The position numbers and the translations under genes are program-made. Shown here piece by piece: positions 36,847-64,000 of a DNA stretch of 64,000 nucleotides (position 1 is the first letter of the stretch; each line of letters begins with the position of its first letter). The notes under the pieces were generated by a model. The model made no database searches, had not been told where the DNA came from, and worked only from the letters and a program-made list of their open reading frames with translations. The DNA is from Zobellia uliginosa. GTDB lineage: Bacteria; Bacteroidota; Bacteroidia; Flavobacteriales; Flavobacteriaceae. Location: positions 496,001-560,000 of the forward strand of contig NZ_JAHKPY010000012.1 in assembly GCF_018860745.1 (NCBI RefSeq). The letters are read 5' to 3'.

Positions 36847-36879
36847 CATTGTACTGAAAATCAACACCTTTTTTAAATT

Positions 36880-38043: not shown

Positions 38044-38062
38044 GAATATATACCGCACTCTT

Positions 38063-45692: not shown

Positions 45693-45777
45693 AACTTAGT
45701 GACAAAAGGCATAACTTAATTTTAAAAGGAGTTATGGCCTAAAAAAATCAAATCACTATTATCAAAAAGTCAGGATT

Positions 45778-47334: not shown

Positions 47335-47343
47335 TTAAAATGC

Positions 47344-48843: not shown

Positions 48844-48844
48844 T

Positions 48845-50434
48845 ATGAATCAATTTAACGGCTACACCATGCGCACCTCTAGACTCCTCACAACTTTAGT
48901 CCTAATTCTTTTAATAACCCCCTCATGTTGGACGCAAGAGAAATCGACTAAAAAACCCAACGTAGTTTTAATTTATGCTGATGATTTGGGAAGAGGTATG
49001 CTTGGTTCCTATGGTCAAAAAATGTTGACCACACCCAATATTGATAGATTAGCTTCAGAAGGTATGCAATTTGAAAGAGCCTATGGCGCTATGTACTGTG
49101 CTCCAGCAAGAGCAAGTCTGCTGACTGGCATGCATGACTGCCATGGTGGTGATGCTATGACTATTGTAAAAGCGGGTATTTACAAACAATTGGACAATGG
49201 CCTCACTTTTGATGAAATTAAAGATAAAATTCACGAAGTAGCATTACCTGCTGAAAAAGACGAAGTGTTTTTAGGAGAAGTAGCTCAAAGAGCGGGTTAT
49301 ACCACAGGGCAATTTGGGAAGCTAGAATGGGGTTTTGCCACCACTCCCGAACGTATGGAGCGCCATGGTTGGGACCATCATTTTGGGTACTACGACCACG
49401 TGCGCTGCCATGGCTTCTACCCTCCTTTTCTTTTTGAAGACGGGAAAAAAATAGATATCCCAGGAAACACACATATAGATTGTGCCAAAACCACGGAATA
49501 TGACTCCCCAGAAAATTATGCTACTCGTTGGAACATGGAGGGCAAAGCGGTGTATTCCGAGCATATATTAATGGATAAAATGTTGGCTTTTATGGATGAC
49601 AATAATCCAAAAAAAACCGATAAACCTTTCTTTCTCTATTTCCCCACACAGTTACCTCACGGACCAACTATGGTTCCTGAAGTACATCCCGAACTAGCGA
49701 ACAATACCAATCTAACACAATGGGAAAAGGAATATGCTTCCATGGTAAAAATGTTAGATGATGATGTGGGCCGTATTTATGACAAACTAGAAGAAATGGG
49801 AATTTTGGAGAATACCATCATCGTCTTTACATCAGACAATGGGCACGAAATTTATTATCCTGAAGAAGGTCGCACCTCCAAAAACAACGTGAATGTAAAA
49901 GGAGAGGAGTTTGATAATATTACAACTCGCTTCAATAGTAAGGCCATAGGTGATATTTTTGATGGCAACGACGGCATGTCCGGTAAAAAGCGGGACAACT
50001 GGGAAGGTGGCGTACGTGTTCCGCTATTCTGGTATTGGAAAAACCATATAAAAGCCGGTGCAGTTTCAGACCAAATGGTCAGTAATTATGATTTTTTAAA
50101 TACCCTTGCGGAAATTGTAGGCACACCACAAGTAAAAGAAAAAGATGGTATTTCTTATGCCAAAGTTCTATTTGGTGGCAAACCAAAACTGCGTGAATAC
50201 ACCATTTACTCTTCAAAAATGGGTCCCGCTTTAGTTACCCAAGAAGGTTGGAAGCTGAGGTACTATCTTAAAGAAAACGTTTTTCAACTCTACTATCTGC
50301 CTGAGGATTACGAAGAAATAAATGATTTAGCTAAAGAACATCCTGAAAAGACGGAAAACCTAAAAGCAATTCTCTATGAAGAATGCAATGGAAATTGGGA
50401 AAATGGACTTGGCCCAATTCAAATAAGAATCTAA
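48845..50434 (+). CDS. S1-type formylglycine sulfatase, exported
   Basis: The 529-residue enzyme carries the core KPNVVLIYADDLGRGMLGSYG and the formylglycine site CAPARASLLTGMHDC near residue 83. The Cys pair around it may form a disulfide. GQFGKLEWGF replaces the usual GKWH block, and FTSDNGHEIYYPEE follows near 330. The signal peptide (LLTTLVLILLITPSC) is best read from the ATG at 48869, eight codons in, since the first codons are polar; the upstream ATG is kept as the boundary because it sits one base behind the previous stop. It is followed 13 bases later by an SGNH hydrolase. Confidence 0.88.
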   Translation: MNQFNGYTMRTSRLLTTLVLILLITPSCWTQEKSTKKPNVVLIYADDLGRGMLGSYGQKMLTTPNIDRLASEGMQFERAYGAMYCAPARASLLTGMHDCHGGDAMTIVKAGIYKQLDNGLTFDEIKDKIHEVALPAEKDEVFLGEVAQRAGYTTGQFGKLEWGFATTPERMERHGWDHHFGYYDHVRCHGFYPPFLFEDGKKIDIPGNTHIDCAKTTEYDSPENYATRWNMEGKAVYSEHILMDKMLAFMDDNNPKKTDKPFFLYFPTQLPHGPTMVPEVHPELANNTNLTQWEKEYASMVKMLDDDVGRIYDKLEEMGILENTIIVFTSDNGHEIYYPEEGRTSKNNVNVKGEEFDNITTRFNSKAIGDIFDGNDGMSGKKRDNWEGGVRVPLFWYWKNHIKAGAVSDQMVSNYDFLNTLAEIVGTPQVKEKDGISYAKVLFGGKPKLREYTIYSSKMGPALVTQEGWKLRYYLKENVFQLYYLPEDYEEINDLAKEHPEKTENLKAILYEECNGNWENGLGPIQIRI

Positions 50435-50447
50435 ATAAATTGGAGCT

Positions 50448-51200
50448 ATGATCGAAAAAACATTCAGATGTAATTATATTTTGCTTCTTTTAATACTGTT
50501 TGCTTTTACATTTTCTGCAAATGCTCAATCTGATTTAATAGAAAATCCTGCGGCTACGTCTGTACAACGTGATGGGGACTGGTGGAACAACAGGCACAAG
50601 ACCATCGTAGACAGACTTGATTCTAATCCTGAATTGATATTAGTTGGAAACTCCATTTTTCACACCTTGGAAGAAGAAGACCGCAAAGAAGTTTGGACTA
50701 AATACCTAGACCGATACCGTACTGTAGACATGGGTATTAGCGGTGACCGAACCGAGAATGTTATCTGGCGTATTGAAAATGGAACCTTAGAAGGTATAAA
50801 TCCAAAAGTAGCCGTAGTTTTAATAGGAACCAACAATACAGATGGCAACCATTATTTAAACATAAGTACACCTGAAGAACTAGCCAATGGCATCTACAAA
50901 ATATGTACCCTACTGAACCAAAAACTTCCTGATACCGAGATTCTGCTTATGGGTATTCTTCCTTACGGATACAAAGCCAATCACAGAGATAACATTAACA
51001 AAGCAACAAATAAACTGATTGCTTCCTTTCCAAAAAAGAATCCAAAAATTCACTACATCAACATTGGCTCTAAATACGTTGATGAAAATGGGAAAATCAA
51101 AAAAGAACTCATGCCTGATTACCTCCATCCCAATGCAGAAGGACATCTCTTAATGTTCGAGGCGCTTGATGCCGATATTCAAAAGTTAATGAAACAGTAA
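50448..51200 (+). CDS. SGNH/GDSL-type esterase, exported
   Basis: The 250-residue protein has a signal peptide (ILLLLILFAFTFSANA) and an SGNH hydrolase fold of the PAF-acetylhydrolase-like type. Block I is LVGNSIFHTLE near residue 65, with the nucleophile Ser but Asn in place of the Asp of GDS. MGISGDRTENVIWRI follows, then block III IGTNNTDGNHYL near 125, and block V DYLHPNAEGH near 224-233 with the Asp/His pair. Such enzymes remove acetyl or other acyl groups from glycans. Between sulfatases and glycosidases it probably deacylates the same polysaccharide. Confidence 0.82.
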   Translation: MIEKTFRCNYILLLLILFAFTFSANAQSDLIENPAATSVQRDGDWWNNRHKTIVDRLDSNPELILVGNSIFHTLEEEDRKEVWTKYLDRYRTVDMGISGDRTENVIWRIENGTLEGINPKVAVVLIGTNNTDGNHYLNISTPEELANGIYKICTLLNQKLPDTEILLMGILPYGYKANHRDNINKATNKLIASFPKKNPKIHYINIGSKYVDENGKIKKELMPDYLHPNAEGHLLMFEALDADIQKLMKQ

Positions 51201-51238
51201 ATGATTTAAAGCTCAACTTTTTACAGAACCAATACCAA

Positions 51239-52951
51239 ATGAAACTCAATTATCTTCTTATAGCCCTTGTCTTTCTGAACCTCTCGCCTATATGCGCGCA
51301 GAAAACACCAGAACCTAAAACGAAGAAAAAGAAAGCCAGTGAAATGGTCATAGAAAGAGAACGACCTGCGGAATGGAGTAAGCTTGTTTTGGGTGGACGT
51401 TTTATGGACCGTTTTCTACCCATGCCCGATCTGGGAGGTATGACCTCCGGTACTTGGGGGGCACCCGGTGTAACCCCCAGAGATATCAACAATGGGGTGG
51501 AGAGTCCGCTTTGGTCTTATTGGGGCGGAAATACCCTATTGGAGCAGGAAGATGGCAAGTATCATCTCTTTGTCTGCCGATGGCCCGAAAATGCAGAGAA
51601 AGGCCATATGGCTTATCATGACAGCCGGGTTGTTCATGGGGTTTCAAAATCTCCTTTCGGCCCTTTCAGAATTGCCCGAGAAGTTGGTCATGGACACAAC
51701 CCTACTTGGTATAAAACGAAGAAAGGTAGATACGTTCTTTATGTCATTGACAAGTATTATGTTGCGCAACATATTAATGGTCCATGGAAAGAAGGGCAAT
51801 TTGAGTTTGACAAGCGAGATAGAGAAACCTCTAGCGCCCATAATTTTATGCACAACTGCACTTTCGCTCAACGTGAAGACGGCACATTTTTAATGGTGAA
51901 TAGGCATGGGTATTCATGGTTTAGTAAAGATGGTCTCACCACATGGAATATGGTTGGGGAGAAATCTGGGTATCCGCCAGTAGAAGGCAAATATGAAGAT
52001 CCTGTTATTTGGAAAGACAACATACAATACCACATGATCGTAAACGATTGGCTGGGCAGAATTGCTTGGTACTTGCGTTCAAAAGATGGTGTAGATTGGA
52101 AGGTAGAACCGGGTGAAGCTTATGTACCGGGAATCTCAATTCATGAAAACGGCAAAAAAGAAGACTGGCACAAATATGAACGTATCCGAATGCTACAAGA
52201 TGAAAAAGGGCGAGCTATTGCCGCCAACTTTGCCGTTATTGACACTTTAAAATACGAAGACCTGCCCAATGACAACCACAGTTCCAAACTAATTGTCGTT
52301 CCATTGATAAAGGATAAGTTACTAACCCTCTTGAACGAGAATAAAATCTCTCCAAAAACAAAAGAGATTCGAGTAAAAATAGAAGCTGAAAGCGATTTTA
52401 ATCCACAAACAGATATAGACTTAAACTCATTACGTTTTGGGGCTTCAGAAAAAGTAAACTTCGGAAATGGAAGTAAAATAACACGAACCGAAAAACTGGG
52501 CAAGGACCTCATTCTCATTTTCAATGGAAAAGGCAATGGGCTCACGGAAGACAACTTTGCCGGAAAACTAATTGGTAAAGACAAAAACGGAAAATTACTT
52601 TTTGGATACACCCGTTTGCCGGAAGTTGAATACGTCCAACCCATTCTCTCCGCCAGAGCTCCAACCTTTACAAAAACATCAGAAGGTTATACCGTTGAAG
52701 TGAAAGTAGAAAACTTTGGCCAAGTTGCCTCTACGGAGACGGAAATCAATATTACCCTACTAGAGAATGGGAACGAGAAGAATTTGGCATCGGGAAAGGT
52801 TCGACCTTTAAAACCGTTTCAAGAAGTAATGGTATCTCTTCCCTGTACAATAAAACTACAAAAAGGGAGTACCTATACTTTAAAAAGCACCCTTCTACCC
52901 CAAGGTGACCAACCTGTAAATTTTACCAAAACCATTACCCTACAAGAATAA
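51239..52951 (+). CDS. Exported beta-propeller glycosidase-like protein, family not assigned
   Basis: The 570-residue protein has a signal peptide (LLIALVFLNLSPICA). An N-terminal domain (about 45-370) shows repeating five-bladed-propeller elements, such as GKYHLFVCRWPENAEKGHM, KKGRYVLYVIDKYYVAQHI, GTFLMVNRHGYSWFSKDG and YEDPVIWKDNIQYHMIVND. The layout resembles GH43/GH117-like enzymes: acidic residues precede each blade, and YEDP is a GH43-like signature. A C-terminal beta domain (about 400-570) looks like a CARDB or Ig-type module. I cannot place it in a known family from motifs. It lies among sulfatases and glycosidases with 38- and 7-base gaps, so it very probably acts on the same glycan. 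Confidence 0.7.
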   Translation: MKLNYLLIALVFLNLSPICAQKTPEPKTKKKKASEMVIERERPAEWSKLVLGGRFMDRFLPMPDLGGMTSGTWGAPGVTPRDINNGVESPLWSYWGGNTLLEQEDGKYHLFVCRWPENAEKGHMAYHDSRVVHGVSKSPFGPFRIAREVGHGHNPTWYKTKKGRYVLYVIDKYYVAQHINGPWKEGQFEFDKRDRETSSAHNFMHNCTFAQREDGTFLMVNRHGYSWFSKDGLTTWNMVGEKSGYPPVEGKYEDPVIWKDNIQYHMIVNDWLGRIAWYLRSKDGVDWKVEPGEAYVPGISIHENGKKEDWHKYERIRMLQDEKGRAIAANFAVIDTLKYEDLPNDNHSSKLIVVPLIKDKLLTLLNENKISPKTKEIRVKIEAESDFNPQTDIDLNSLRFGASEKVNFGNGSKITRTEKLGKDLILIFNGKGNGLTEDNFAGKLIGKDKNGKLLFGYTRLPEVEYVQPILSARAPTFTKTSEGYTVEVKVENFGQVASTETEINITLLENGNEKNLASGKVRPLKPFQEVMVSLPCTIKLQKGSTYTLKSTLLPQGDQPVNFTKTITLQE

Positions 52952-52958
52952 TATCAAC

Positions 52959-54398
52959 ATGAGCAACAGAAGGAATTTTATAAAAAAGGCAGGTATGGGC
53001 GCCGCCCTAGCAGGAGTTTCAGGTCCGTTAGCAGTACATGCCGCTTCCTCTCATTTTGAGGTATCCAATAAAACGGGTAAAAATGAAGGTGAACAAATAA
53101 AAATAAAAGTTACAAAACCCCTATTTTGCCCGTACCATAGTATTGGCGATGGAGCACTAAAAGGTGGTGATGCCTATTACTTTCAAAGTGATGCTTTTTC
53201 CCACAATCCATTTACTATTCCGGCCAGTGGCATGAGCGGTTCGCCCGTAATTCGTGATGCTGCAGGTAAATTCGTTGGCTTTATGACCACGTTTGGTTAT
53301 GAAGATTCTACGTTTAGTTTTGATGGAAAGGAAACCTTGACCATCAATGTTCCCAATGGCCAAGAACTTTTTGTGGATGAAGGCGGAGATGGTGAAAAAG
53401 CCTGGAAGACCTACAACACCAAAATGATGGAACGGCTAAATATTCAGCCTTATAAAGTTTATCCTCATTTTTGGGCAGATGTGGAATATTGTACTTGGGT
53501 AGAACAGAAAATACAATCTAATGTTCCCAAAGGACATTTCAATATATTAAATCACGATTTTGTAGCGAAGTACTTAGATAAAATAGTTGAATACGGCTAT
53601 CCTAAGGGAAAAATGACATTAGACCATGGTTGGGGACAATTTCCTGATGGCTCTCTAAATTCCGGTTATGGTTCCTGGAGTCCAGACCCCAAGAAATTTC
53701 CCGATTTCCATAAGACCATGGACCTTATTAATGAGAAAGGATTTACTCCAGGATTGTGGATTGGCTTCCCTAAAATTCATGCTGCTAGTACGGCTGCACA
53801 GAACAATCCTAATTTATTGGGTGCCTTCAGGGCCGAGGGCAAAACCCAATACGATAAAGGAGTACGCTGGCTGAACCCAAAATCCGATATTTTTGAATAT
53901 GCCTCAGAAACCATCTATCGTTTTCATCAAATGGGGGTCCGAAAGTTTAAAATTGACATGTCATACAACACAAAATCAGACATGTTACACATACACAAAG
54001 AACTTTATAAAGCTGCAAAAGGTATTGACGAAACCATTGAAATGGAATTTCATGTGCCCGATATTTTCTTTACCAAGTTTACCGATGTTACCCGAACCAA
54101 TGATGTTTGGCTCAATGATAAGTACGATTGGCCTGCCCGTGTAAAAACACATTATGAAATCTCATATAAATCTTCTCCGGGACGTGGTATCAATCTTGAC
54201 CATATTGGTGGAAATGCCGAAAAAGACATTACGGAAGAAAAATACCTACAACACCTAGAAATGTTTAAATCTAAAATTGGCTATCCTTTGGTTTCAGTTC
54301 TACCACATCACATCAGTCAAAAATGTGTTGATGAAACAGGTGATTATTTATGGGATTATGAAAAAGGATTAAGAAATATCATTTCTGATTTTTACTAG
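52959..54398 (+). CDS. Tat-exported GH31/GH36-like glycoside hydrolase
   Basis: The 479-residue protein begins with a twin-arginine signal (NRRNFIKKAGMGAALAGV). A beta domain and then a TIM barrel (about 190-470) follow. LDHGWGQFPDG near 220 and GFTPGLWIGFP near 263-273 are typical of the GH31/GH36 clan, and FKIDMSYNTKSDM near 329 holds the probable nucleophile aspartate. An acid/base residue is likely in EMEFHVPDIFF or further on. It could be an alpha-galactosidase or alpha-glycosidase acting on desulfated oligosaccharides. Tat export is unusual for this clan and agrees with Tat signals on three downstream proteins. Confidence 0.72.
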   Translation: MSNRRNFIKKAGMGAALAGVSGPLAVHAASSHFEVSNKTGKNEGEQIKIKVTKPLFCPYHSIGDGALKGGDAYYFQSDAFSHNPFTIPASGMSGSPVIRDAAGKFVGFMTTFGYEDSTFSFDGKETLTINVPNGQELFVDEGGDGEKAWKTYNTKMMERLNIQPYKVYPHFWADVEYCTWVEQKIQSNVPKGHFNILNHDFVAKYLDKIVEYGYPKGKMTLDHGWGQFPDGSLNSGYGSWSPDPKKFPDFHKTMDLINEKGFTPGLWIGFPKIHAASTAAQNNPNLLGAFRAEGKTQYDKGVRWLNPKSDIFEYASETIYRFHQMGVRKFKIDMSYNTKSDMLHIHKELYKAAKGIDETIEMEFHVPDIFFTKFTDVTRTNDVWLNDKYDWPARVKTHYEISYKSSPGRGINLDHIGGNAEKDITEEKYLQHLEMFKSKIGYPLVSVLPHHISQKCVDETGDYLWDYEKGLRNIISDFY

Positions 54399-54511
54399 TA
54401 AGCCCTGTAAAAGGCTAGTGATTTACAGAGAGAGACAAGAGATACACAGGTAAATACATCTTTTTAAGCTTTTTAAACTTCATTTGATGGTAGATTTAAA
54501 TAGCGGTTTCT

Positions 54512-56092
54512 ATGATTCACTGGTTTAAAAAAATTGGATTTTCTTTTTTACTCATTTTCCTTTTTACACTCGCATCTTGTGGTGGGAGTACCAAAAAAGA
54601 AAAAGTAGAAACTGTAGATAACCGTCCAAACGTTTTATGGATAACCATTGAAGACTGGAGTCCGGACTTATCCTGTTACGGCACAAAGGGTATCCACACA
54701 CCTAATGTAGACCAATTGGCCGCAGAAGGTATTCGCTATAACAAGGCATTTACAACCTCACCGGTCTGCTCTACATCACGTTCAGCAATGATGACCGGTT
54801 TTCACCAAAACTATATTCGTGCCAACCAACATCGCGAACACAATAAACAGCCATTACCTCATGGTATAAAACCCATTCCTAAACTGTTTGAAGAGGCTGG
54901 CTATTTCACCACGTTAATGAGCTGGAAGACAGATATGAACTTTCTTCCTGACACCAAAGAAGAGCTTTTCATGAATACCAATGATTGGACGGACCGCAAG
55001 CCTGGCCAACCATTCTTTGCTAGAATTACCTTTGGAGGCACCCACCGTTCTTGGAACCGTGACCCACAAAGACCTATTGACATAAAAGATGTGGAGCGTC
55101 CTCCCTATTATGCAGACACTCCTTTTATACGTCGTGATTGGGCCAATGGTCTAGAGCAAATGCAATTAGTAGACCGTGAAGTAGGCGCCTTGCTAAAACG
55201 ATTAGAAAACGAGGGATTGGCAAACAATACCATTGTCTTTTTTATTGGCGATCACGGCCGATGTCACATACGAGGCAAACAATTTTTGTACGATGGCGGT
55301 ACCCGAATTCCTATGATTATGAGATGGCCAGGGAGAATTGAACCCAAACAAATAAGTGAAGATATGGTCATGTCTATTGATATTGATGCAACCATCCTTG
55401 AAGCCGCTGGCATTACCCCTCCGGTTCCACTTCACGGCAAAAACCTTTTAGGGGATGACATTAAAAACCGAAAATACACTTTTGCCGCCCGAGATAAAAT
55501 GGACGAGACCCATGATGCCATGCGTTCCATTCGTTCTAAAGACTATAAGCTTATTCTGAATTTAATGCCCGAGAGGCCCTATTTGCAATACAACCAGTAC
55601 AAAGAAAACGCATACCCCGTACTAGCAGAAATGGGCATTATGTACCTAAAAGGAGAACTTAATCCTGCACAAGCAGCCTTCTTTTCCCCCGTAAAACCTG
55701 AAATTGAGCTATATGATCTACGAAATGATACATATGAGGTAGACAATGTAGCAGATAACCCCGAATATAGCTCTGTGAAAAAAGAGCTACTGGCCGAACT
55801 TCAAAACTGGCGCACCAACGTCATTGAAGATGAAGGTGTGAGTGATGAATTTAGGGCCGTTGGCGTTTTTCCCGATAAGAATCCATTTTCAACAGTGGAC
55901 GAATGGGTAGCCAAAAACCAAAAAAATTACGATTTCAACCGTATAGGCTGGCCTGCATGGTATCCTACAAAAACGCTTCAAGAATGGCAAAAGGCCCGCA
56001 ACAAATGGGAACCTTACGCTATGAGAGGAGCTTCTGAAAATATACCTCGTCCTGAAATTGGCATTATCAAAAAGAAGAAAAAACAGAATTAA
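54512..56092 (+). CDS. S1-type sulfatase lipoprotein with a variant CSTSR catalytic motif
   Basis: The 526-residue enzyme has a lipoprotein signal (FLFTLASC, Cys near 22) and the core RPNVLWITIEDWSPDLSCYG. The catalytic cysteine motif is CSTSRSAMMTGFHQNY near residue 86. The usual Pro after C-x is Thr here, while the Arg is kept. FFIGDHGRCHIRGKQ near 245 contains the second metal site. It is preceded by a 113-base gap, the largest in the operon, without a clear terminator. It probably removes a further sulfate group, but formylglycine conversion at CSTSR is less certain than for the other three sulfatases. Confidence 0.85.
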   Translation: MIHWFKKIGFSFLLIFLFTLASCGGSTKKEKVETVDNRPNVLWITIEDWSPDLSCYGTKGIHTPNVDQLAAEGIRYNKAFTTSPVCSTSRSAMMTGFHQNYIRANQHREHNKQPLPHGIKPIPKLFEEAGYFTTLMSWKTDMNFLPDTKEELFMNTNDWTDRKPGQPFFARITFGGTHRSWNRDPQRPIDIKDVERPPYYADTPFIRRDWANGLEQMQLVDREVGALLKRLENEGLANNTIVFFIGDHGRCHIRGKQFLYDGGTRIPMIMRWPGRIEPKQISEDMVMSIDIDATILEAAGITPPVPLHGKNLLGDDIKNRKYTFAARDKMDETHDAMRSIRSKDYKLILNLMPERPYLQYNQYKENAYPVLAEMGIMYLKGELNPAQAAFFSPVKPEIELYDLRNDTYEVDNVADNPEYSSVKKELLAELQNWRTNVIEDEGVSDEFRAVGVFPDKNPFSTVDEWVAKNQKNYDFNRIGWPAWYPTKTLQEWQKARNKWEPYAMRGASENIPRPEIGIIKKKKKQN

Positions 56093-56106
56093 AGCCAAAA
56101 TTCAGA

Positions 56107-57609
56107 ATGACAACAAAAATTAAACTTGTACAAAAAGTAGCTATCGCCTTTATATTTTTTACGGGGATAACCGCATTACACGCTCAACTTAAACCGAAAA
56201 AATTTCAGCCCGAGTGGGAATCTATCCGAGAGGGCTATGAAATTCCCGAATGGTTCCGCGATGCTAAATTTGGCATCTTCCTTCACTGGGGACCTTATGC
56301 CGTACCCGCCTACAGTAGCGAAAAATACCCAAGAGGTATTTATGATAAAAAATGGTCAAAAGGAGGGAAAAAGCCATATACCTATCATCGTGAATATTAT
56401 GGGGAACCTTCAAAATTCGGGTACAAAGATTTTATACCTGATTTTAAGGCAGAAAAATTTGATGCGGATGAGTGGGCTAAATTATTTAAAAATGCAGGGG
56501 CTCGTTATGTAGTGCCAGTTGCAGAGCATCATGACGGGTATGCTATGTACGCCTCCAACCACACCCGCTGGAACGTTAAAGATACAGGACCAAAGAAAGA
56601 TGTAATGCGCATGTTGTCCGAAGCTGTAAAGAAAAACGATATGAAATTTGGGGTGTCTTCCCATTTTGCGCGCCACCGCGTATATTACCGTAAGGATGAC
56701 CCAACTTGGGACACTAATGACCCTAGGTTTTATGACCTCTATGGTGAACCAATAGGTAATGACACCTTACCCACCAAAAAATTCCTAAATCTTTGGTGGA
56801 ACCGTACTACGGATATCATTGACAACTATGAACCCGATTTATTATGGTTCGATTTTGGGTTGGACAAACCTGGATTTGAAGTCGTGCACAAAGAAATACT
56901 CGCTTATTATTACAACAAAGGTGAAGAATGGAACAAGGGTGTTGTTTTTCAAGATAAAAACATGAGAAACAAATCTTTTCCGGAAGACCTGATTGTATTG
57001 GATATTGAGCGTGGGCGCATGGATGGTATTTACAAATATCCTTGGCAAACGGATACATCTATCGGTAAAATTTCGTGGGGTTATGTCTCCAATGAAGAAT
57101 ACAAAACCTCTAACTACCTTCTAGACGAGTTGATAGATATAGTAAGTAAAAACGGCTGTTTGTTACTGAACATTGGACCAAAAGCAGATGGTACTATTCC
57201 TAATGAAGCAAAGAACATATTAAACGAAATGGGCAAATGGCTAAGCCTTAATGGCGAAGCTGTTTATGACACCAGACCTTGGACCATCTTTGGAGAAGGC
57301 CCTACCAAAGTAGAAACAGGACATCATTCCGAAAAAAACAATAAAGAATCCGGACCTGAAGACTTTAGGTTTACCACCAAAGACGGAATTCTCTATGCAA
57401 CGGCTCTGGGTTGGCCTAAAGACGGGAAATTCAATATTAAATCGCTTGCAAAAAATAATCCGAACACATCAAAAAAAATAGCATCTGTAGAATTCATAAG
57501 CGGTAAAAACAGTATGAAGTGGAAACAAACTGGCAAAGGACTTTCTATTACCGTTACTGGTACAAAACCTTGCGAGGCCGCTTATGTCTTTCGGATAAAA
57601 CTGAATTAA
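56107..57609 (+). CDS. GH29 alpha-L-fucosidase, exported
   Basis: The 500-residue enzyme has a signal peptide (VAIAFIFFTGITALHA). It matches GH29: WFRDAKFGIFLHWGPYAVPAY near residues 49-69 (given in two parts), AGARYVVPVAEHHDGYAMY near 130-148 with the substrate histidines, and the nucleophile in DLLWFDFGLD near 241. NGCLLLNIGPKADGTIP follows near 348, then a C-terminal beta domain. It removes terminal alpha-L-fucose or alpha-L-galactose-type residues by retention. In a sulfatase-rich locus this suggests a sulfated fucan or a galactan with L-sugars. It starts 14 bases after the fourth sulfatase. Confidence 0.93.
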   Translation: MTTKIKLVQKVAIAFIFFTGITALHAQLKPKKFQPEWESIREGYEIPEWFRDAKFGIFLHWGPYAVPAYSSEKYPRGIYDKKWSKGGKKPYTYHREYYGEPSKFGYKDFIPDFKAEKFDADEWAKLFKNAGARYVVPVAEHHDGYAMYASNHTRWNVKDTGPKKDVMRMLSEAVKKNDMKFGVSSHFARHRVYYRKDDPTWDTNDPRFYDLYGEPIGNDTLPTKKFLNLWWNRTTDIIDNYEPDLLWFDFGLDKPGFEVVHKEILAYYYNKGEEWNKGVVFQDKNMRNKSFPEDLIVLDIERGRMDGIYKYPWQTDTSIGKISWGYVSNEEYKTSNYLLDELIDIVSKNGCLLLNIGPKADGTIPNEAKNILNEMGKWLSLNGEAVYDTRPWTIFGEGPTKVETGHHSEKNNKESGPEDFRFTTKDGILYATALGWPKDGKFNIKSLAKNNPNTSKKIASVEFISGKNSMKWKQTGKGLSITVTGTKPCEAAYVFRIKLN

Positions 57610-57642
57610 AAACAATCCAAACCTATTTTCAAAATATAGAAG

Positions 57643-59355
57643 ATGAGCAAATTTTATTTTAACGAAGAGCAAAGTTCCTATGACGCTATTGTTGTGGGTA
57701 CAGGTGTCAGCGGAGGCTGGGCTGCCAAAGAACTGTGTGAGAATGGGTTAAAGACCCTTATGCTGGAAAGAGGCAGAATGGTAGAGCACATTAAGGATTA
57801 TACCACTGCCCACATGGACGACTGGGACTTTAAACATGGTATGGAACTCTCTATTGAAGAAAAGGCAAAAAGACCCAAACAAAGTAGAACTAATAAAGGA
57901 AAAAGTGCAGATTCATACAAGTGGTTCGTAAATGACTTGGACCACCCTTACAATGAGACCAAACCTTTTAATTGGATGCGCGGTTATCACGTTGGTGGCC
58001 GTTCCATAACCTGGGGTAGACACAGTTACCGTTGGAGTGAAATTGATTTTGAAGCAAACAAGAATGATGGTCATGGTGTTGATTGGCCTATTCGCTATAA
58101 AGATATTGCTCCATGGTATGATAAAGTAGAAACCTATATTGGAGTTTCTGGTGAAAAAATGGGGCTTAGACAATTGCCTGATGGGCAGTTTCTCCCAATG
58201 ATGGAATTGAATTGTGTAGAGCAAAAATTTAGGGATAAAGTTTACGAAAATTTAGATGGACGAGTAGTTACTTCAGGTCGTATAGCCCACATAACAGGTG
58301 ACAAAGAATTTGAAGGGCGCACCAAATGTCAGTTTAGGAACCGTTGTTCAAGAGGGTGTCCGTTTGGAGGATATTTCAGTAGTAACTCATCTACGTTACC
58401 AGCTGCGGAACGAACAGGTAATCTAACCCTAAGGCCTGATTCTATCGTAACCGAAGTAATTTACGACCCCGACACTAAAAAAGCTGCAGGGGTAAAAGTC
58501 ATAGACCGCTTAACTAAGGAAGAATTTGTATTTAAGGCAAAGGTTATTTTCTTATGTGCATCGGCCATTGCATCGGCTTCTATTCTTATGCAATCAAAAT
58601 CTGACCGTTTTCCTAATGGGATGGGTAATGATTCCGATCAATTGGGCCGTAACATCATGGACCATCATTTAGGAGCTGGCGCTAACGGAAAATTTGACGG
58701 TTTTGATGATAAATATTACAAGGGAAGAAGGCCTGGCGGTGTGTATATTCCTCGTTTTAAGAATATAGATGCTAAATCTAAGAGCAAGGATTACCTACGT
58801 GGTTTTGGATACCAAGGAGGTGCAAGCCGTAAAAACTGGAAAGATTCCGTTGCAGAACTTACGATGGGTGCAGAGCTTAAAGAAGCAATTCTAAAACCAG
58901 GTGGCTGGACCATGGGCGTAGGTGGTTTTGGTGAAATTCTACCTTACCAAGACAATCGTATGACCTTAGACTATGACAATTTAGATGGTTGGGGCCTACC
59001 AACGGTAACCTTTGATGCTGAAATACGCGACAACGAATTTAAAATGCGCGAAGACATCGTAGTTCAAGCGGCAGAAATGTTGAAGCAAGCAGGAGCTAGA
59101 GATATCAAAACTAACAACAGCTCCTATAATATTGGCCATGGTATTCACGAAATGGGAACCGCACGTATGGGTAGAGACCCAAAAACATCAGTACTTAATG
59201 GTCATAACCAAGTGCACGAAGTACCAAATGTATACGTTACTGATGGCGCCTTTATGGCATCATCAAGCTGTGTCAACCCTTCATTGACTTACATGGCTTT
59301 TTCTGCAAGAGCAGCCAATCACGCCGCACAAGAACTTAAAAAAGGAAATATATAA
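57643..59355 (+). CDS. GMC-family oxidoreductase, candidate glycoside 3-dehydrogenase catalytic subunit
   Basis: The 570-residue flavoprotein begins with an FAD-binding motif YDAIVVGTGVSGGWAAKEL (about 13-31) and YHVGGRSITWGRHSYRW near 118-134. A Cys-rich loop, CQFRNRCSRGCPFGGYFS, lies near 228-245. The C-terminal GMC block has the catalytic His in GIHEMGTARMG near 501 and Asn in SSCVNPSLTYMAF near 545. It has no signal peptide of its own. It overlaps the next gene by one base, a Tat-signal gluconate-dehydrogenase-subunit-3-like partner that probably carries it across the membrane. This pairing is known from FAD-dependent sugar dehydrogenases, including glucoside 3-dehydrogenases. 3-Keto formation here is inference from the operon. 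Confidence 0.88.
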   Translation: MSKFYFNEEQSSYDAIVVGTGVSGGWAAKELCENGLKTLMLERGRMVEHIKDYTTAHMDDWDFKHGMELSIEEKAKRPKQSRTNKGKSADSYKWFVNDLDHPYNETKPFNWMRGYHVGGRSITWGRHSYRWSEIDFEANKNDGHGVDWPIRYKDIAPWYDKVETYIGVSGEKMGLRQLPDGQFLPMMELNCVEQKFRDKVYENLDGRVVTSGRIAHITGDKEFEGRTKCQFRNRCSRGCPFGGYFSSNSSTLPAAERTGNLTLRPDSIVTEVIYDPDTKKAAGVKVIDRLTKEEFVFKAKVIFLCASAIASASILMQSKSDRFPNGMGNDSDQLGRNIMDHHLGAGANGKFDGFDDKYYKGRRPGGVYIPRFKNIDAKSKSKDYLRGFGYQGGASRKNWKDSVAELTMGAELKEAILKPGGWTMGVGGFGEILPYQDNRMTLDYDNLDGWGLPTVTFDAEIRDNEFKMREDIVVQAAEMLKQAGARDIKTNNSSYNIGHGIHEMGTARMGRDPKTSVLNGHNQVHEVPNVYVTDGAFMASSSCVNPSLTYMAFSARAANHAAQELKKGNI

Positions 59356-59918
59356 TGGACAGGAGAAAAGCATTAATGCAGATAGGAATGTCTATGGGCT
59401 ACGTAGTAGCCGTACCAACATTCATGAGTGTTTTACAAAGTTGTAACGATAGTAAAACCAACACTTGGACACCCCAATTTTTAACTCCAGATGAAGGCGT
59501 TGTACTAATTGGCCTAATCGACAGTATTCTTCCAAAAACGGATACCCTTTCAGCATCGGAAGTTAACGTTCATATTTTTTTGGACAGCTTTGCCAACGAA
59601 GTGATGCCTCCAAAACAGCAAGACCAATTTAAGGCTACCTTAAACCAACTAGCAGCCAATGCACTAGAAAGCTCCAAAAAAGAGCGGATAAGCGATCTTA
59701 CCGCTACGGATCTTGCCCCTGAAATGAGAAAAGCATTGACCAATAAAAAAGCAAAGGGTGTACCCTTTGCCAAAAATATTCGTGATTTAACTATATGGGG
59801 GTATAAATGTACCGAGTATGTAGGCGAAGAGGTATTGGCCTATGATTCTATTCCTGGTCAATATATTCCATGCGGCGATTTAGATGAACTAACAGGAGGA
59901 AAAGCTTGGTCTATTTAA
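59355..59918 (+). CDS. Gluconate 2-dehydrogenase subunit 3-like protein (Tat carrier subunit)
   Basis: The 187-residue protein starts with a twin-arginine-like MDRRKALMQIGMSMGYVVAV, followed by a lipobox-like SVLQSC. FLTPDEGVVLIGLIDSILP near 42-60 and GVPFAKNIRDLTIWGYKCTEY near 135-155 are characteristic of the gluconate 2-dehydrogenase subunit 3 family. It acts as the small partner of the GMC oxidoreductase encoded just upstream and may provide membrane attachment. The start codon overlaps the last base of the GMC stop (TAATG), showing translational coupling. No cytochrome subunit is encoded nearby, so the electron acceptor is unknown. Confidence 0.88.
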   Translation: MDRRKALMQIGMSMGYVVAVPTFMSVLQSCNDSKTNTWTPQFLTPDEGVVLIGLIDSILPKTDTLSASEVNVHIFLDSFANEVMPPKQQDQFKATLNQLAANALESSKKERISDLTATDLAPEMRKALTNKKAKGVPFAKNIRDLTIWGYKCTEYVGEEVLAYDSIPGQYIPCGDLDELTGGKAWSI

Positions 59919-59964
59919 ACCAAGCTTTAATCCACAAGAACCTACCAAACAAAGAGAACGAAAA

Positions 59965-60882
59965 ATGAAAAGACGCAACTTCATACAAAAAACAGCATTA
60001 TCTACAGGAGCAATCTCAATGGGTTCAGGGTTATCCTATGCCTCTAATTTAGCTTCATCAAAAGATGCTCATAAATTCAATTTAAAATATGCTCCACATT
60101 TGGGCATGTTTGAAAACCACGTGGGCAAAGACCCTATTGACCAATTGAACTTTATGGCGGACCAAGGCTTTACGGCTTTTGAGGATAATAAAATGCGTAC
60201 CCGAGATGTAGCGCTACAGGAGAAAATGTCACAAACCATGCAGAAAAGAGGCATTGAAATGGGTGTTTTTGTCGCTGTCTTTTTAAAGGAAGGACATGTA
60301 GCTTCCGGCGACCCTGAAAAGCGAAAAGCCTTTTTAAAATACTGTAAAGAATCAGTAGAAGTTGCCAAACGTGTAAATGCGAAGTGGATGACGGTTGTAC
60401 CGGGAAATGTGGCTGCCAAAGTTAAGGAAGGATACCAAACTGCAAATGTAATTGAAACCTTAAAACAGGCTTCGGCAATTTTTGAGCCGCATAATCTTAC
60501 TATGGTGCTCGAACCTTTGAACTTTTTCAATCATCCCGGTGCTTTTTTAACGGATTCTCCACAAGCATATGAAATCTGCAAAGCTGTGGATACCCCTTCA
60601 TGTAAAATTCTTTTCGATATATATCATCAACAAATACAGGAAGGTAATCTCATTCCTAATATGAAAGCTTGTTGGGATGAAATAGCCTATATCCAAATTG
60701 GAGACAACCCGGGAAGAAATGAACCTACCACGGGAGAAATTAACTATTGGAATGTTCTAAAATTCATAAAGGAGAAAGGTTACAACGGCATTTTAGGCAT
60801 GGAACACGGCAATTCAAGACCTGATAGGGAAGGTGAACTAGCCGTTATAAATGCGTACAAAAAGGTGGATAGTTTTAAATAA
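59965..60882 (+). CDS. Tat-exported TIM-barrel isomerase/epimerase-like protein (hydroxypyruvate-isomerase-like)
   Basis: The 305-residue protein has a Tat signal (MKRRNFIQKTALSTGAISM), then a xylose-isomerase-like barrel (PF01261 type). Metal-binding residues are visible in MVLEPLN near 182 (Glu), KILFDIYHQQIQ near 214 (Asp, His), YIQIGDNPGRNEP (His replaced by Gln/Asp region) and GILGMEHGNS near 282 (Glu). Cytosolic relatives include hydroxypyruvate isomerase. Export is unusual and places it beside the exported oxidoreductase. In gut Bacteroides, exported proteins of this fold are part of 3-keto-glycoside cleavage, a role I think likely here but cannot prove. Confidence 0.82.
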   Translation: MKRRNFIQKTALSTGAISMGSGLSYASNLASSKDAHKFNLKYAPHLGMFENHVGKDPIDQLNFMADQGFTAFEDNKMRTRDVALQEKMSQTMQKRGIEMGVFVAVFLKEGHVASGDPEKRKAFLKYCKESVEVAKRVNAKWMTVVPGNVAAKVKEGYQTANVIETLKQASAIFEPHNLTMVLEPLNFFNHPGAFLTDSPQAYEICKAVDTPSCKILFDIYHQQIQEGNLIPNMKACWDEIAYIQIGDNPGRNEPTTGEINYWNVLKFIKEKGYNGILGMEHGNSRPDREGELAVINAYKKVDSFK

Positions 60883-60912
60883 TTCAAGACGAAATTTTAG
60901 AAACTGAAAAAA

Positions 60913-61845
60913 ATGCAAAGAAGAAAATTTATCAGTAAATCAATACAAGCCGCAACTTTAGCATCAGTAGCCGGAGTTCCTTTTCATGGTTTTGCAGACA
61001 TTGCAAAATCGGATAAAAGTCGATTTTTTAAAATCTCGTTAGCGGAATGGTCTTTTCATAATGATCTCCGCGCCGGGAAAATGGATAATCTTGATTTTGC
61101 CGCCAAAGCTAGAAGTTTTGAATGCGAAGGTTTGGAATATGTTAATCAGTTCTTCATGGATAAGGCAAAGGATAAGACCTACCTCAAAGAAATGAATAAC
61201 AGAGCCGATTCTGAAGGGGTAAAGAATGTGTTGATAATGATTGATAGAGAAGGGCAACTGGCAGATGTAGATTCCAAAAAACGTTCGCTAGCAATAGAAA
61301 ACCATCACAAGTGGATTGATGCTGCTCATTTTCTAGGTTGTCATGCCATTAGAGTGAATTTAGGAGGAGGAATTGAAAAAGGAGAGGCTACAAAAACTGC
61401 CATTGATTCATTACATAAACTTGCGGATTACTCCAAAGATTCCAATATCAATATTCTAGTCGAAAATCATGGCGGTTTCTCTTCTGACGGCGTATGGTTA
61501 TCTAACGTAATGAAGAATGTAGAACGAGAAAACTGCGGCACATTGCCAGATTTTGGAAACTTTTGTATTGAAAAAAACAAAGAACGCGAATGTGTGAATG
61601 AGTATGATAAGTACAAGGGGTTTGCAGAGATTTTACCTTTTGCAAAAGGAGTAAGTGCCAAATCTATTGAGTTTGATAAAATGGGCAACGAAACAACCAT
61701 TGATTATTTCAAAATGATGAAAATGGTTAAAGATTCAGGATATACCGGCTTCATAGGTATTGAATTTGGTACATCTACTGGCTCAGAAGAAGAGGGAGTT
61801 AAATTGACTAGAGACTTACTTATAAGAGCAGGCTCACAAGTCTAA
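60913..61845 (+). CDS. Second Tat-exported TIM-barrel isomerase/epimerase-like protein
   Basis: The 310-residue protein begins MQRRKFISKSIQAATLASVAG, a twin-arginine signal, and continues with an AP-endonuclease-2/xylose-isomerase-like barrel. Probable metal ligands are in NILVENHGGFSSDGVW near 183 (Glu), TLPDFGNFCI near 215 (Asp) and GFIGIEFGTSTG near 281 (Glu). It differs strongly from the preceding isomerase-like protein, so it is not a recent duplicate. It starts 30 bases behind that gene and 26 bases before the DUF1080 fusion. One may catalyse elimination or isomerisation and the other epimerisation of an oxidised sugar; the split of tasks is unknown. Confidence 0.82.
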   Translation: MQRRKFISKSIQAATLASVAGVPFHGFADIAKSDKSRFFKISLAEWSFHNDLRAGKMDNLDFAAKARSFECEGLEYVNQFFMDKAKDKTYLKEMNNRADSEGVKNVLIMIDREGQLADVDSKKRSLAIENHHKWIDAAHFLGCHAIRVNLGGGIEKGEATKTAIDSLHKLADYSKDSNINILVENHGGFSSDGVWLSNVMKNVERENCGTLPDFGNFCIEKNKERECVNEYDKYKGFAEILPFAKGVSAKSIEFDKMGNETTIDYFKMMKMVKDSGYTGFIGIEFGTSTGSEEEGVKLTRDLLIRAGSQV

Positions 61846-61871
61846 ACAAAGCACCTAAAAAAATAAGCGTT

Positions 61872-63926
61872 ATGAAATATACTTCCTTCAAAATAGCATA
61901 TGCAGTTACATTTTTGACGCTTATTTTTTTTATAAACGGAACTGCTCAAAAGACATCTGATGATGTTGCCGTCCCCTTTATTGGAAATTGGGCTGCAGTT
62001 TTGCCGGATGGTCATCCTGTATGGCTTTCATTTTATATAAAAGATGGTGTTCTTGATGGCGAAGCATGGTCCGTAGGCCTTGGCAATGCTATTTCTGAAT
62101 TAAAAATCAATTCCGATACCCTTTATTTCAAAAGACTATATAAAGTTGGCGCACCCAATTTTCCTGGTGGCCCTCCAACAGGAAAAAAAGTTCCTGTTCA
62201 AACCAGGGCAGTTGTTAAAGACGATAAGATATTTCTGTCTATGGACTGGCCCTTGTCTAATGGAACTACTAAAAAATTAGATTTTAAAGGTAAACGTTTA
62301 CCTTCATTGCCTTCTAAACCAGATTTGGACAAAGTGAAATTTGGAGAACCGATTACTCTTTTCAACGGGAAGGATTTATCAGGATGGCGACTCACCAATC
62401 CAAATCAAATTAATGGATGGAAAGCAGAAAATGGCATTTTAATAAACACCACTCCCAAACTTAATTTTGACCCTTTTTCAAAATATGGCAACCTTCGTAC
62501 AAATGGTGAGTTTAAAGACTTTAATCTCCAACTAGAATTTAATGTGCCAACAGGTGGAAATAGCGGTATATATCTATGTGGAAGATACGAAACACAAGTA
62601 GTAGACAGAGATAGTAGAATGCAAGGTTTGCAAGGTGTAGGTGCATTATTTGCTCGGATACCTCCTAGTGAAAATGCAGGTAAAGTTGGTGGTGAATGGC
62701 AAAAATATGATATCACCTTAGTAGACCAACATGTGACCGTCATTCTCAACGGAAAAAAAGTAATAGATAACGAACTTATCCTAGGTGCTACAAAGGGCGC
62801 ACTAAACGCAGATGATACCAAACCCGGACCAATTTACTTTCAGGGGGATCATACCGCGGTTAAGTATAAAAACATAGAACTTCGGCCACGTATCAATCCC
62901 AATTATAAAAAACAAGGCACCGATACATTAGAATTTCTAAAGTTTGATGTTAATGGAAATGGGGCATTAGAACCAACGGAGATTCCTTTATTCGATCAAG
63001 ATGTTTTTGATCAAGCTGATTCGGATATTGACTGGCAATTAAGCGAAAAAGAATACAAAAGCTACCTGGCTTATGAAAAACGCATACAATCTGACCGTAC
63101 TTTGATTCCCGAAAATACTCAAATTTTTAGCGATGTACCGTATATTCTTGACGGTCACAATAGACATACCTTAGATATTTATCTACCGGATACTACAAAA
63201 TTCAAAAAACCCTATCCTCTTGTTGTATGGATTCATGGCGGAGGTTGGCAAAAAGGCACAAAAGACCTTTTTGGAAAGCAGGCGTTTCTATTAAAACATG
63301 GGTTTTCCATGGCTTCAATAAATTATCGCCTTACTAGAGAATCAGAATTTCCAGAACAAGTTTATGATTGTAAGGCAGCCATTAGATATCTTAGAAAATA
63401 CGCAGACCAGTATGGATTAGATGCTAATCATTTTGGATTATGGGGCTCTTCAGCTGGCGGGCATTTAGCCTCCTTGACAGGTACCACCAACAACTCAAAA
63501 GAATTAGAGGGAAGCCTTGGTGTAATCGATGCTTCTAGTGAGGTACAAGCCGTTTGTGTTTGGTTTGGCCCATCAGATTTAAATTTGATGAATACCTCTT
63601 CAACCGACAAATCAAAAGGCGAAAAACAAAACACAAAACCCATTATAAAATTCCTTGGAGGACCTTTCACAGAAAAACAAGAAGCTGCAAGAAAAGCGAG
63701 TGCCATAAACTATATTTCAAAAGACGACCCACCATTTTTAATTATGCACGGAGAAAAAGACCCTCTGGTACCCATAGAACAGAGTGCGCTGTTTTACAAA
63801 GCGCTTCAAAAACAAAATATTGATTCCGAATATATTTTGGTAAAAGATGGTATACACTCTTTTTTCATGGGTGTCAACAACCATAAAAAAGTGACAGAAT
63901 TCTTCAAAAATAAGTTAATGGACTAA
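61872..63926 (+). CDS. Secreted three-part fusion: DUF1080 (3-keto-disaccharide hydrolase type), EF-hand pair, alpha/beta esterase
   Basis: The 684-residue protein has a signal peptide (YAVTFLTLIFFINGTAQ) and an N-terminal lipocalin-like beta region (about 35-150). A DUF1080/PF06439 jelly-roll (about 155-350) starts ITLFNGKDLSGWRL and contains GGNSGIYLCGRYETQVVD and GEWQKYDITLVDQ. Two EF-hand-like loops follow, DVNGNGALEPTE near 359 and DSDIDWQLSEKE near 385. The end (about 420-684) is an esterase with the oxyanion motif WIHGGGWQ, nucleophile LWGSSAGGHLA near 525, Asp in GEKDPLVP and His in DGIHSFF. PF06439 proteins act on 3-keto sugars. The fusion suggests deacylation and cleavage of one substrate. 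It follows the isomerase-like gene by 26 bases. Confidence 0.85.
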   Translation: MKYTSFKIAYAVTFLTLIFFINGTAQKTSDDVAVPFIGNWAAVLPDGHPVWLSFYIKDGVLDGEAWSVGLGNAISELKINSDTLYFKRLYKVGAPNFPGGPPTGKKVPVQTRAVVKDDKIFLSMDWPLSNGTTKKLDFKGKRLPSLPSKPDLDKVKFGEPITLFNGKDLSGWRLTNPNQINGWKAENGILINTTPKLNFDPFSKYGNLRTNGEFKDFNLQLEFNVPTGGNSGIYLCGRYETQVVDRDSRMQGLQGVGALFARIPPSENAGKVGGEWQKYDITLVDQHVTVILNGKKVIDNELILGATKGALNADDTKPGPIYFQGDHTAVKYKNIELRPRINPNYKKQGTDTLEFLKFDVNGNGALEPTEIPLFDQDVFDQADSDIDWQLSEKEYKSYLAYEKRIQSDRTLIPENTQIFSDVPYILDGHNRHTLDIYLPDTTKFKKPYPLVVWIHGGGWQKGTKDLFGKQAFLLKHGFSMASINYRLTRESEFPEQVYDCKAAIRYLRKYADQYGLDANHFGLWGSSAGGHLASLTGTTNNSKELEGSLGVIDASSEVQAVCVWFGPSDLNLMNTSSTDKSKGEKQNTKPIIKFLGGPFTEKQEAARKASAINYISKDDPPFLIMHGEKDPLVPIEQSALFYKALQKQNIDSEYILVKDGIHSFFMGVNNHKKVTEFFKNKLMD

Positions 63927-63949
63927 GGTCAAACTAAGAAACAACAAAG

Positions 63950-64000
63950 ATGAACAAGCACATATTAAATATTATTTTGGGATTACTATGCGTAGGATTT
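63950..64000 (+). CDS. Start of another exported protein (truncated by the window end)
   Basis: An ATG 24 bases after the fusion gene opens a frame with 17 codons in the window, MNKHILNIILGLLCVGF. The basic start and hydrophobic run look like a signal peptide. It probably continues the same operon; its function cannot be told from this fragment. Confidence 0.6.
   Translation, partial: MNKHILNIILGLLCVGF

Follow-up and report, generated by a model that had tools for sequence, protein, structure and literature searches.

A LacA-like dehydrogenase pair and a DUF1080-esterase cassette in a Zobellia sulfatase locus: a possible oxidative side-route for a λ-carrageenan-like galactan

Overview

Zobellia uliginosa carries, in a 13-sulfatase locus on contig NZ_JAHKPY010000012.1 (C1), a row of five genes encoding a flavin-dependent GMC dehydrogenase that resembles LacA and GlycDH, its small partner (subunit 3), two exported PF01261 TIM barrels (XIa and XIb), and a fusion of a DUF1080 domain with an esterase. 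The row lies in the window, the 64,000-nucleotide stretch that was analysed (positions 1..64,000 correspond to C1:496001-560000 of a 4.86-Mb genome; C8 and C12 below are further contigs). These genes are best read as a periplasmic oxidative side-route for a λ-carrageenan-like galactan, built from two units, and we assign this reading a probability of roughly 0.52.

In the proposed mechanism, the GMC enzyme of the first, genus-wide unit would fold in the cytoplasm and be carried out by the twin-arginine translocation (Tat) system on the lipoprotein subunit 3. The sulfatases would expose a non-reducing-end galactose, the GMC enzyme would oxidise its free C3 hydroxyl, and the electrons would pass to a c-type cytochrome. 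The second unit is a cassette of XIb, the DUF1080-esterase fusion and sulfatase 5, which in another Zobellia genome is linked to a λ-carrageenase-like gene. The steps would run as oxidation, elimination (putatively by one of the barrels), hydration and reduction, an order suggested by the LacABC/DUF1080 system (PMC9007349), the GlycDH/OGE system (PMC10628242) and the PDB titles of DUF1080-fold structures. The 3-keto sugar might then be imported and reduced by the major facilitator superfamily (MFS) and Gfo/Idh/MocA-type proteins of a second cluster, on C8. The genes, their domains, the synteny, the selection and the linkage are shown; the C3 position, the sequence of the steps, the choice of eliminating barrel, the substrate, the electron acceptor, and import with reduction are inferred.

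Few marine carbon stores are as recalcitrant as the sulfated galactans of algae, which are described as being broken down by sulfatases and hydrolases in alternation. If the reading is true, a periplasmic route of flavin-dependent oxidation and elimination would change the annotation of such loci, explain the GMC (AA3) genes found there and offer new tool enzymes. The link between the DUF1080-esterase cassette and a λ-carrageenase-like gene makes a specific and cheap test possible.

Two units in one locus

The five-gene row is not a chance pattern, since the reading frames are long, the domain scores strong and the arrangement syntenic in sister genomes. All five frames are open and their Pfam matches exceed the curated cut-offs, so the row and domain names given in the initial annotation stand; signal, RR and lipobox motifs were read by eye. 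The GMC and subunit 3 genes overlap by 1 base, and the next intergenic gaps are 46, 30 and 26 bp.

57643..59355, + strand: GMC dehydrogenase, LacA/GlycDH-like (PF00732/PF05199)
59355..59918, + strand: subunit 3, Gluconate_2-dh3 (PF13618)
59965..60882, + strand: XIa, exported PF01261 TIM barrel (Pfam)
60913..61845, + strand: XIb, exported PF01261 TIM barrel (Pfam), cassette gene 1
61872..63926, + strand: DUF1080-BD-FAE fusion (PF06439), cassette gene 2
from about 63950 to C1:561479, + strand: sulfatase 5, cassette gene 3

Synteny was compared in 20-kb stretches around the GMC orthologues of nine Zobellia genomes, the source genome (G000) and eight others (G001-G008). The GMC and subunit 3 genes lie inside the sulfatase locus in all nine, which bears out the proposed tie between the pair and a sulfated-glycan locus. 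XIa accompanies them in eight of nine, being absent from G002, and GH29 is missing from the locus in G002 and G004; in G002 the pair is retained although both XIa and GH29 are gone. G006 and G008 retain GMC, subunit 3 and XIa although their SusC is a different one (30% identity) and SusD is either down to 25% identity (G008) or without a match (G006). In the same two genomes, the stretches examined (L050 in G006, L049 in G008) have no match to the FG-GAP gene and keep the GMC genes.

The GMC protein of the locus is 94-99% identical among Zobellia, with a ratio of nonsynonymous to synonymous substitution (dN/dS) of 0.008-0.024 in the six of eight pairs that give a value. For subunit 3, XIa and GH29 the ratio ranges from 0.011 to 0.083, and for the neighbouring upstream sulfatase it is 0.055-0.069 in six of eight pairs; the outliers of that sulfatase are G003 (0.285 on a dS of 0.034) and G002, whose value comes from a 26%-identical match. 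The ratios indicate strong purifying selection on the locus copy of the GMC gene; they are rough because dS exceeds 1 or gives no value in most genome pairs.

The rest of the row behaves differently, and the idea that the five genes form one conserved module was rejected on the Zobellia synteny and on an alignment to G004. XIb occurs at this place only in G000 and G003 (two of nine) and elsewhere in G004; the fusion occurs at this place in one genome of nine, and full-length anywhere in two (G000 and G004). G001, G007 and G004 show the empty site, where XIa ends (window about 60870) and the SusC region (about 65630) follows directly. In window numbering carried past its end, the stretch 60892-65394, which holds XIb, the fusion and sulfatase 5, is collinear with one stretch of G004 contig 11, with DNA identities of 73.7% over 4402 columns and 75.7% over 70. 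XIb, the fusion and sulfatase 5 are therefore an inserted cassette of about 4.5 kb.

In G004 the cassette adjoins a further sulfatase and SusC/D-like genes, a λ-carrageenase-like gene whose product is 63% identical to the C12 protein described below lies about 10 kb away, and no GMC match falls within 36 kb around the cassette. The fusion and the λ-carrageenase-like gene co-occur in the same two of nine Zobellia, G000 and G004. This co-occurrence is suggestive only, and the physical linkage in G004 carries more weight; in G000 the fusion and the gene are on separate contigs. The full-length orthologue in G004 also disposes of the idea that the fusion is unique to the source genome. The family-wide sample for the fusion comprised 149 genomes of 148 genera, including two of the nine Zobellia; G004 lies outside it.

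The dehydrogenase pair

Both GMC domains (PF00732 and PF05199) are recognised above the cut-off, at 51.6 and 83.1 bits, and subunit 3 matches PF13618 at 79.4 bits. By eye, the N-terminus of the GMC protein has no signal peptide, and that of subunit 3 combines an RR motif, a hydrophobic stretch and an LQSC lipobox. The genome encodes TatC; the NCBIfam TAT_signal model matches none of the five proteins at E 0.001. The Tat partner named in the initial annotation thus keeps its family assignment, its RR motif and a translocase in the genome, and lacks a match to the formal signal model. On these sequence features, subunit 3 probably carries the GMC enzyme through the Tat system and anchors it in the membrane, with export predicted.

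Among 13 aligned GMC sequences, Cys229, Cys235, Cys239 and His502 are invariant and Asn545 nearly so; we take the three cysteines, by analogy with FAD-glucose dehydrogenase and fructose dehydrogenase, to be possible 3Fe-4S ligands. LacA, too, is a GMC protein. The best PDB matches are fructose dehydrogenase (141 bits) and FAD-glucose dehydrogenase (125 bits), with 7qf8, presumably a glycoside 3-oxidase, a distant third at 45 bits.

Small signal-bearing CxxCH proteins of a single family, 49-69% identical to the L122 protein, lie 26-3356 bases from the GMC gene in 9 of 124 loci scanned, eight of them within 700 bases. A homologue of this small GMC-neighbouring cytochrome is encoded elsewhere in all nine Zobellia genomes.

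The barrels and the fusion

XIa and XIb both match PF01261 above the curated cut-off, and both begin with an RR motif followed by a hydrophobic stretch. In XIa, E183, D218, Q244 and E280 are invariant among 18 aligned sequences and align with 3ngf; they likely form a metal site, with ligation inferred from the alignment. The AlphaFold model of XIa (predicted local distance difference test score, pLDDT, 79) matches D-tagatose 3-epimerase folds, and its 50 listed matches are mostly epimerases. The best NCBIfam scores are those of hydroxypyruvate and 2-oxo-tetronate isomerases, far below their curated cut-offs. XIa could, on this model, act in elimination, hydration or epimerisation, and its role is left this wide because the E/D/Q/E site is intact but the fold neighbours are mostly sugar 3-epimerases. 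For XIb, the best PDB match is 4ovx (279 bits), which has no stated function.

The fusion begins with an N-terminal domain that matches no Pfam family at E 0.001, continues with DUF1080 (PF06439, 135.5 bits) and an EF-hand-like linker seen by eye, and ends in a BD-FAE esterase (residues 434-645, 231.5 bits, GSSAG motif) whose closest relatives of known structure are, among others, a GH43-CE protein, Lip_vut4 and acetyl xylan esterases. Its N-terminus looks Sec-type. A Foldseek search with a model of the N-terminal domain plus DUF1080, which is weak (pLDDT 67, six sequences), returns 8rr2, 3osd, 8v31 and 8tda at E about 1e-6; the PDB titles name 8tda and 8v31 as 3-keto-2-hydroxy-glucal hydratases and 8rr2 as a 3-keto-glycoside eliminase/hydratase. 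The model thus suggests that the DUF1080 half is of the 3-keto-glycal hydratase type. Altogether, the domain set fits the oxidation-elimination-hydration scheme that had been put forward for the row. The genome has 15 PF06439 matches, and strains without the fusion therefore need not lack the DUF1080 step.

Stand-alone relatives of the N-terminal domain plus DUF1080, with 41-46% identity, are found in five other genera (L170-L174).

Target glycan

The locus begins with a regulator inside the window and extends beyond it to about C1:596.4 kb, some 55 kb in total. Upstream of the GMC gene it contains the following genes.

41389..45573, + strand: hybrid two-component regulator, head of the locus
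45778..47334, + strand: sulfatase 1
47344..48843, + strand: sulfatase 2
48845..50434, + strand: sulfatase 3
50448..51200, + strand: GDSL-type esterase (Pfam)
51239..52951, + strand: protein without a family (no Pfam match at E 0.001, no PDB relative at E 1e-5)
52959..54398, + strand: exported protein, weakly similar to Melibiase (score under the curated cut-off)
54512..56092, + strand: S1_8-like sulfatase, two genes upstream of the GMC gene (PDB comparison)
56107..57609, + strand: GH29 (Pfam, PDB comparison)

Beyond the window follow SusC/SusD, further sulfatases, an FG-GAP protein, two GH110 proteins (GLAA-B domains), a PhoD-like protein and a GH2. The whole locus thus has 13 sulfatases (PF00884 matches within C1:541-592 kb, in 14 rows with one gene in two pieces), two GH110, one GH29 and one GH2; PhoD, SusC/D, GH2 and the SMP-30-like C-terminus of sulfatase 12 were named by reading the sequence. 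As background, 4.8% of genome positions have at least two sulfatases within 10 kb, a figure computed with two contig sizes guessed.

The initial annotation had linked the row to four sulfatases and a fucosidase. The four sulfatases and the GH29 gene are there. An α-L-galactosidase is an equally good reading of the GH29 protein, since 434.5 bits is the score of both its closest solved relatives, 7snk (labelled α-L-fucosidase) and 7ljj (labelled exo-α-L-galactosidase). A firm assignment as α-L-galactosidase was dropped on account of the same tie.

Several proteins point to a λ-carrageenan-like substrate. The first GH110 scores 800 bits against the PDB entry for GH110A (9beh, an entry named in PMC12549532) and is 60% identical to the GH110 of a Pseudoalteromonas carrageenovora plasmid. 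The sulfatase at 54512..56092 matches the λ-carrageenan 2-O-sulfatases S1_8A, S1_8B and S1_8C at 343, 259 and 193 bits. The λ-carrageenase-like (GH150) gene is absent from the C1 locus and lies on C12 in the source genome; its product is 51% identical to an 899-aa P. carrageenovora plasmid protein annotated as hypothetical, which is taken as the λ-carrageenase GH150 because of its place among GH110 and sulfatase genes. The surrounding stretch, C12:118992-134063 (L183 3992-19063), encodes a second λ-carrageenase-like protein, 31% identical to that reference, along with three sulfatases, an SGNH-like esterase and a GH2 (identified by reading the sequence), and is a probable second λ-carrageenan locus. 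The glycan of the C1 locus may accordingly be a λ-carrageenan-like sulfated galactan, an identification that is loosely held.

Origin and spread of the GMC pair

Four GMC (PF05199) and three subunit-3 (PF13618) matches occur in the genome. On C8, a second set of GMC, subunit 3 and XIa is 74%, 46% and 62% identical to the one in the locus, and its cluster also contains DUF1080, XIc, a second GMC, a Gfo/Idh/MocA-type gene, an MFS gene, XIb and a GH2 (Gfo, MFS and GH2 named by reading). Every one of the nine Zobellia genomes has such a second GMC copy, 73-75% identical, outside the sulfatase locus. Judged by sequence comparison, the locus GMC is a paralogue of that in a family-wide cluster with the order DUF1080-XIc-Gfo-MFS-XIb-GMC-subunit 3-XIa.

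At a threshold of at least 48% identity, the Zobellia genomes hold 32 GMC proteins: 18 belong to two housekeeping copies, nine to the C1-type locus, and five are others, all with at least two sulfatases within 10 kb. A tree of 149 GMC proteins and one outgroup, built by a quick method with SH-aLRT support only, was made after removing four of 154 GMC calls (short, or at most 500 bits) and L049 as a copy of L089. At least two sulfatases lie within 10 kb in 15 of its 150 rows, and this label changes state four times (four on starred branches) against a shuffle mean of 14.5. Near-copies clump the label, so the useful number is not the shuffle comparison but the three clades in which sulfatase-linked GMCs fall: the Zobellia locus (eight rows), a group of Arenibacter, G018, G003, G007 and G005 (five), and G001 with G007 (two). 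G002, with one sulfatase in reach, counts as a loss.

The G001 and G007 proteins (L081 and L082) are distant GMCs, 51-52% identical to the locus GMC, that sit in further loci with sulfatases and SusCD; the subunit 3 profile has no match in L081.

Outside Bacteroidota, three loci were examined among 40 listed GMC matches (of 282 records with a match); two were chosen as algal degraders, and the set gives no frequency. A Catenovulum adriaticum plasmid has a row of TIM barrel, heme protein, DUF1080, GMC, subunit 3 and sulfatase, with the barrel 46% identical to XIa and the GMC 60% identical to the locus GMC. On the ulvan plasmid of Alteromonas sp. 76-1, subunit 3 and a GMC (45%) stand amid sulfatases, rhamnosidases and GH88; the available part of PMC6431674 does not discuss this GMC. 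The Ketogulonicigenium operon resembles the Agrobacterium one and lists no sulfatase. Within a joint reading as oxidative exo-cleavage, LacA-like pairs might have been drawn several times independently into sulfated-glycan loci, in three Flavobacteriaceae GMC clades and in the Catenovulum and Alteromonas plasmids, a proposal we rate at somewhat below even odds.

Relation to known systems

The 3-keto-glycoside pathway of Bacteroides and Alistipes (3osd/BT2157, 8tda, 8v31) shares with this locus the DUF1080 hydratase fold and C3-keto intermediates. The locus has a GMC pair, whereas C3 oxidation in that pathway is reportedly the work of Gfo/Idh/MocA enzymes, according to a 2024 report on Bacteroides. 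The exchange of those enzymes for a flavin-dependent GMC pair, which the initial annotation offered as its novelty, is already present in PMC9007349 (LacABC with DUF1080) and PMC10628242 (GlycDH).

In PMC9007349, mutant fitness and gene neighbourhood link a periplasmic LacABC to DUF1080 in Caulobacter and in Bacteroidetes (Pedobacter, Indibacter). That system, with its 3'-ketolactose hydrolase, likewise encodes a multi-subunit dehydrogenase near DUF1080. Compared by description, the Zobellia locus differs in having no adjacent cytochrome gene, a sulfatase-locus setting, a DUF1080 domain fused to an esterase, and two barrels. The Agrobacterium operon of PMC10628242 encodes GlycDH, which makes 3-keto glycosides, OGE, a TIM-barrel Mn enzyme that eliminates the aglycone, a probable hydratase (HYD) and a Gfo reductase; the methods also describe a TAT-pathway signal protein cloned with the GlycDH of Rhizobium GIN611. 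Flavoenzyme, two sugar-isomerase-type proteins and the oxidation-elimination-hydration-reduction logic are common to both. No DUF1080 is named in the available description of that operon, and the Gfo-type gene lies here in the C8 cluster and not in the locus.

The λ-carrageenan cascade of Pseudoalteromonas, described in PMC12549532 as hydrolytic, includes GH110 and S1_8 sulfatases. Shared with the present genome are one GH110 (60%), the S1_8-like sulfatase and, elsewhere in the genome, the λ-carrageenase-like protein; unlike the C1 locus, the surroundings of the P. carrageenovora GH110 genes have no GMC, subunit 3, PF01261 or DUF1080 match, and the GH2 is not orthologous. The initial annotation had suggested a pathway for a sulfated algal glycan that is not known to be described; the glycan is better read as a λ-carrageenan-like galactan, for which this hydrolytic breakdown is on record. 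A figure legend in PMC5698469 lists 'AA3' among the genes of carrageenan polysaccharide utilization loci, and GMC-class genes have thus been drawn near carrageenan genes before. In the available parts of two Z. galactanivorans expression papers (PMC9296495, PMC5613140) no match to the C1 locus was made. In the open-licence PubMed Central (PMC) literature no paper joining 3-keto chemistry with a sulfatase locus was found, and as far as that literature shows, three things seem new: that such pairs were recruited into sulfated-glycan loci, that DUF1080 is fused to an esterase, and that this fusion is linked to a λ-carrageenase-like gene. More broadly, marine bacteria may use oxidative exo-cleavage on sulfated galactans, the λ-carrageenan type included: the LacA-like pair would make 3-keto ends, and a barrel together with the DUF1080-esterase fusion would cleave and hydrate them, possibly bypassing residues that GH110 and GH2 cannot attack because of their sulfate or acyl groups. 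This generalisation is tentative.

Weighing the pathway and its alternatives

Several findings weigh against an oxidative route for a λ-carrageenan-like galactan, some touching the chemistry and some the substrate. On the chemical side, the closest solved GMC relatives presumably oxidise fructose (at C5) and glucose (at C1), and the barrels resemble epimerases and isomerases (XIa) or a protein without stated function (XIb). A crude motif test found no CxxCH frame with a signal-like start around the GMC gene in the nine Zobellia; with no cytochrome gene beside it, similarity to LacA and LacB is claimed and not a LacABC complex. Among 80 named family-wide loci (the best of 594 confirmed, many ending early at contig ends), five have a sulfatase match, one of them in Zobellia, and the other 75 have none in their stretch.

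As to the substrate, identity with the P. carrageenovora proteins is 33% for the S1_8-like sulfatase, 33% for the second GH110, and 24% over half the protein for the GH2. Three of the 13 sulfatases were compared with the PDB: one is nearest S1_8, and the other two are nearest an N-sulphoglucosamine sulphohydrolase and an N-acetylgalactosamine-6-sulfatase. The C1 locus is present in all nine Zobellia and a close λ-carrageenase-like gene in two (absent from seven); a different galactan may therefore be the usual substrate. The wording "λ-carrageenan-like" is cautious for these reasons: the second GH110, the GH2 and other sulfatases are distant, and the λ-carrageenase-like gene is found in two of nine. 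The co-occurrence of that gene with the fusion in two genomes of nine is itself thin, as two sets of two among nine agree by chance with probability 1/36. By tblastn (1e-6), queries for GMC, subunit 3, PF01261, DUF1080 and the esterase found nothing in 37.8 kb of P. carrageenovora or 41.8 kb of Flammeovirga around GH110, and the module is therefore not a general part of GH110-centred loci, of which these two were examined. Nor does the module have a match in the 20 kb examined of the λ-carrageenase-like locus that the source genome has on C12, and in Pseudoalteromonas the breakdown of λ-carrageenan is described as complete by hydrolysis (PMC12549532).

The 3-keto chemistry may be right and the substrate smaller: galactosides or monosaccharides released by GH110, GH29 and GH2, such as floridoside or free galactose, would make the pair a salvage step. 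The LacA-type enzymes of PMC9007349 act on lactose, salicin and raffinose, homologous family-wide clusters are mostly without a sulfatase link, and with GH110, GH29 and GH2 the locus could already degrade the polymer to completion. Against this stand the retention of the GMC gene in the sulfatase locus of all nine genomes despite the second copy in each, and the position of the fusion cassette near a λ-carrageenase-like gene in G004; we consider the salvage explanation unlikely, yet worth keeping in view. Oxidation at C1 is improbable. In that case the GMC enzyme would be an aldose 1-dehydrogenase turning galactose or its sulfate into a lactone, which the SMP-30-like lactonase part of sulfatase 12 would open before the barrels isomerise the acid. 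The FAD-glucose dehydrogenase match, the XIa scores with hydroxypyruvate and 2-oxo-tetronate isomerases (far below cut-off, as noted) and the sulfatase itself, whose C-terminus looks SMP-30/gluconolactonase-like by eye (C1:588443-590722, L012 11443-13722; 87% in G006), agree with such a route. It does not sit well with the 74% identity to a GMC clustered with DUF1080, Gfo-type and PF01261 genes, or with the fold relatives of the fusion's DUF1080, which include 3-keto-glycal hydratases superfluous for a C1 route.

The two units could also be neighbours by transposition only, the first a spare housekeeping dehydrogenase and the second a passenger cassette, with no joint pathway. The whole cassette stands between XIa and SusC only in G000, with XIb alone in G003, and in G004 it lies elsewhere among other neighbours with no GMC match around it. 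Mere adjacency is nevertheless very improbable, given the strong purifying selection on the GMC gene in the locus, the presence in both units of steps of one known pathway, and the GMC pair retained in the sulfatase locus of G004.

Other genes in the window

A cluster of nitrous oxide reductase type occupies 17714-26003 on the minus strand, with a nos_propeller protein (23480-25438), a small cytochrome c (25461-26003), NosD (20428-21666) and, as a weak match, an ABC-2 membrane protein. The cytochrome was considered as the missing third subunit of the dehydrogenase and rejected, as it adjoins the nos_propeller protein, NosD and the weak ABC-2 match. It shares 51% identity with the cytochrome found near the GMC genes of related genomes.

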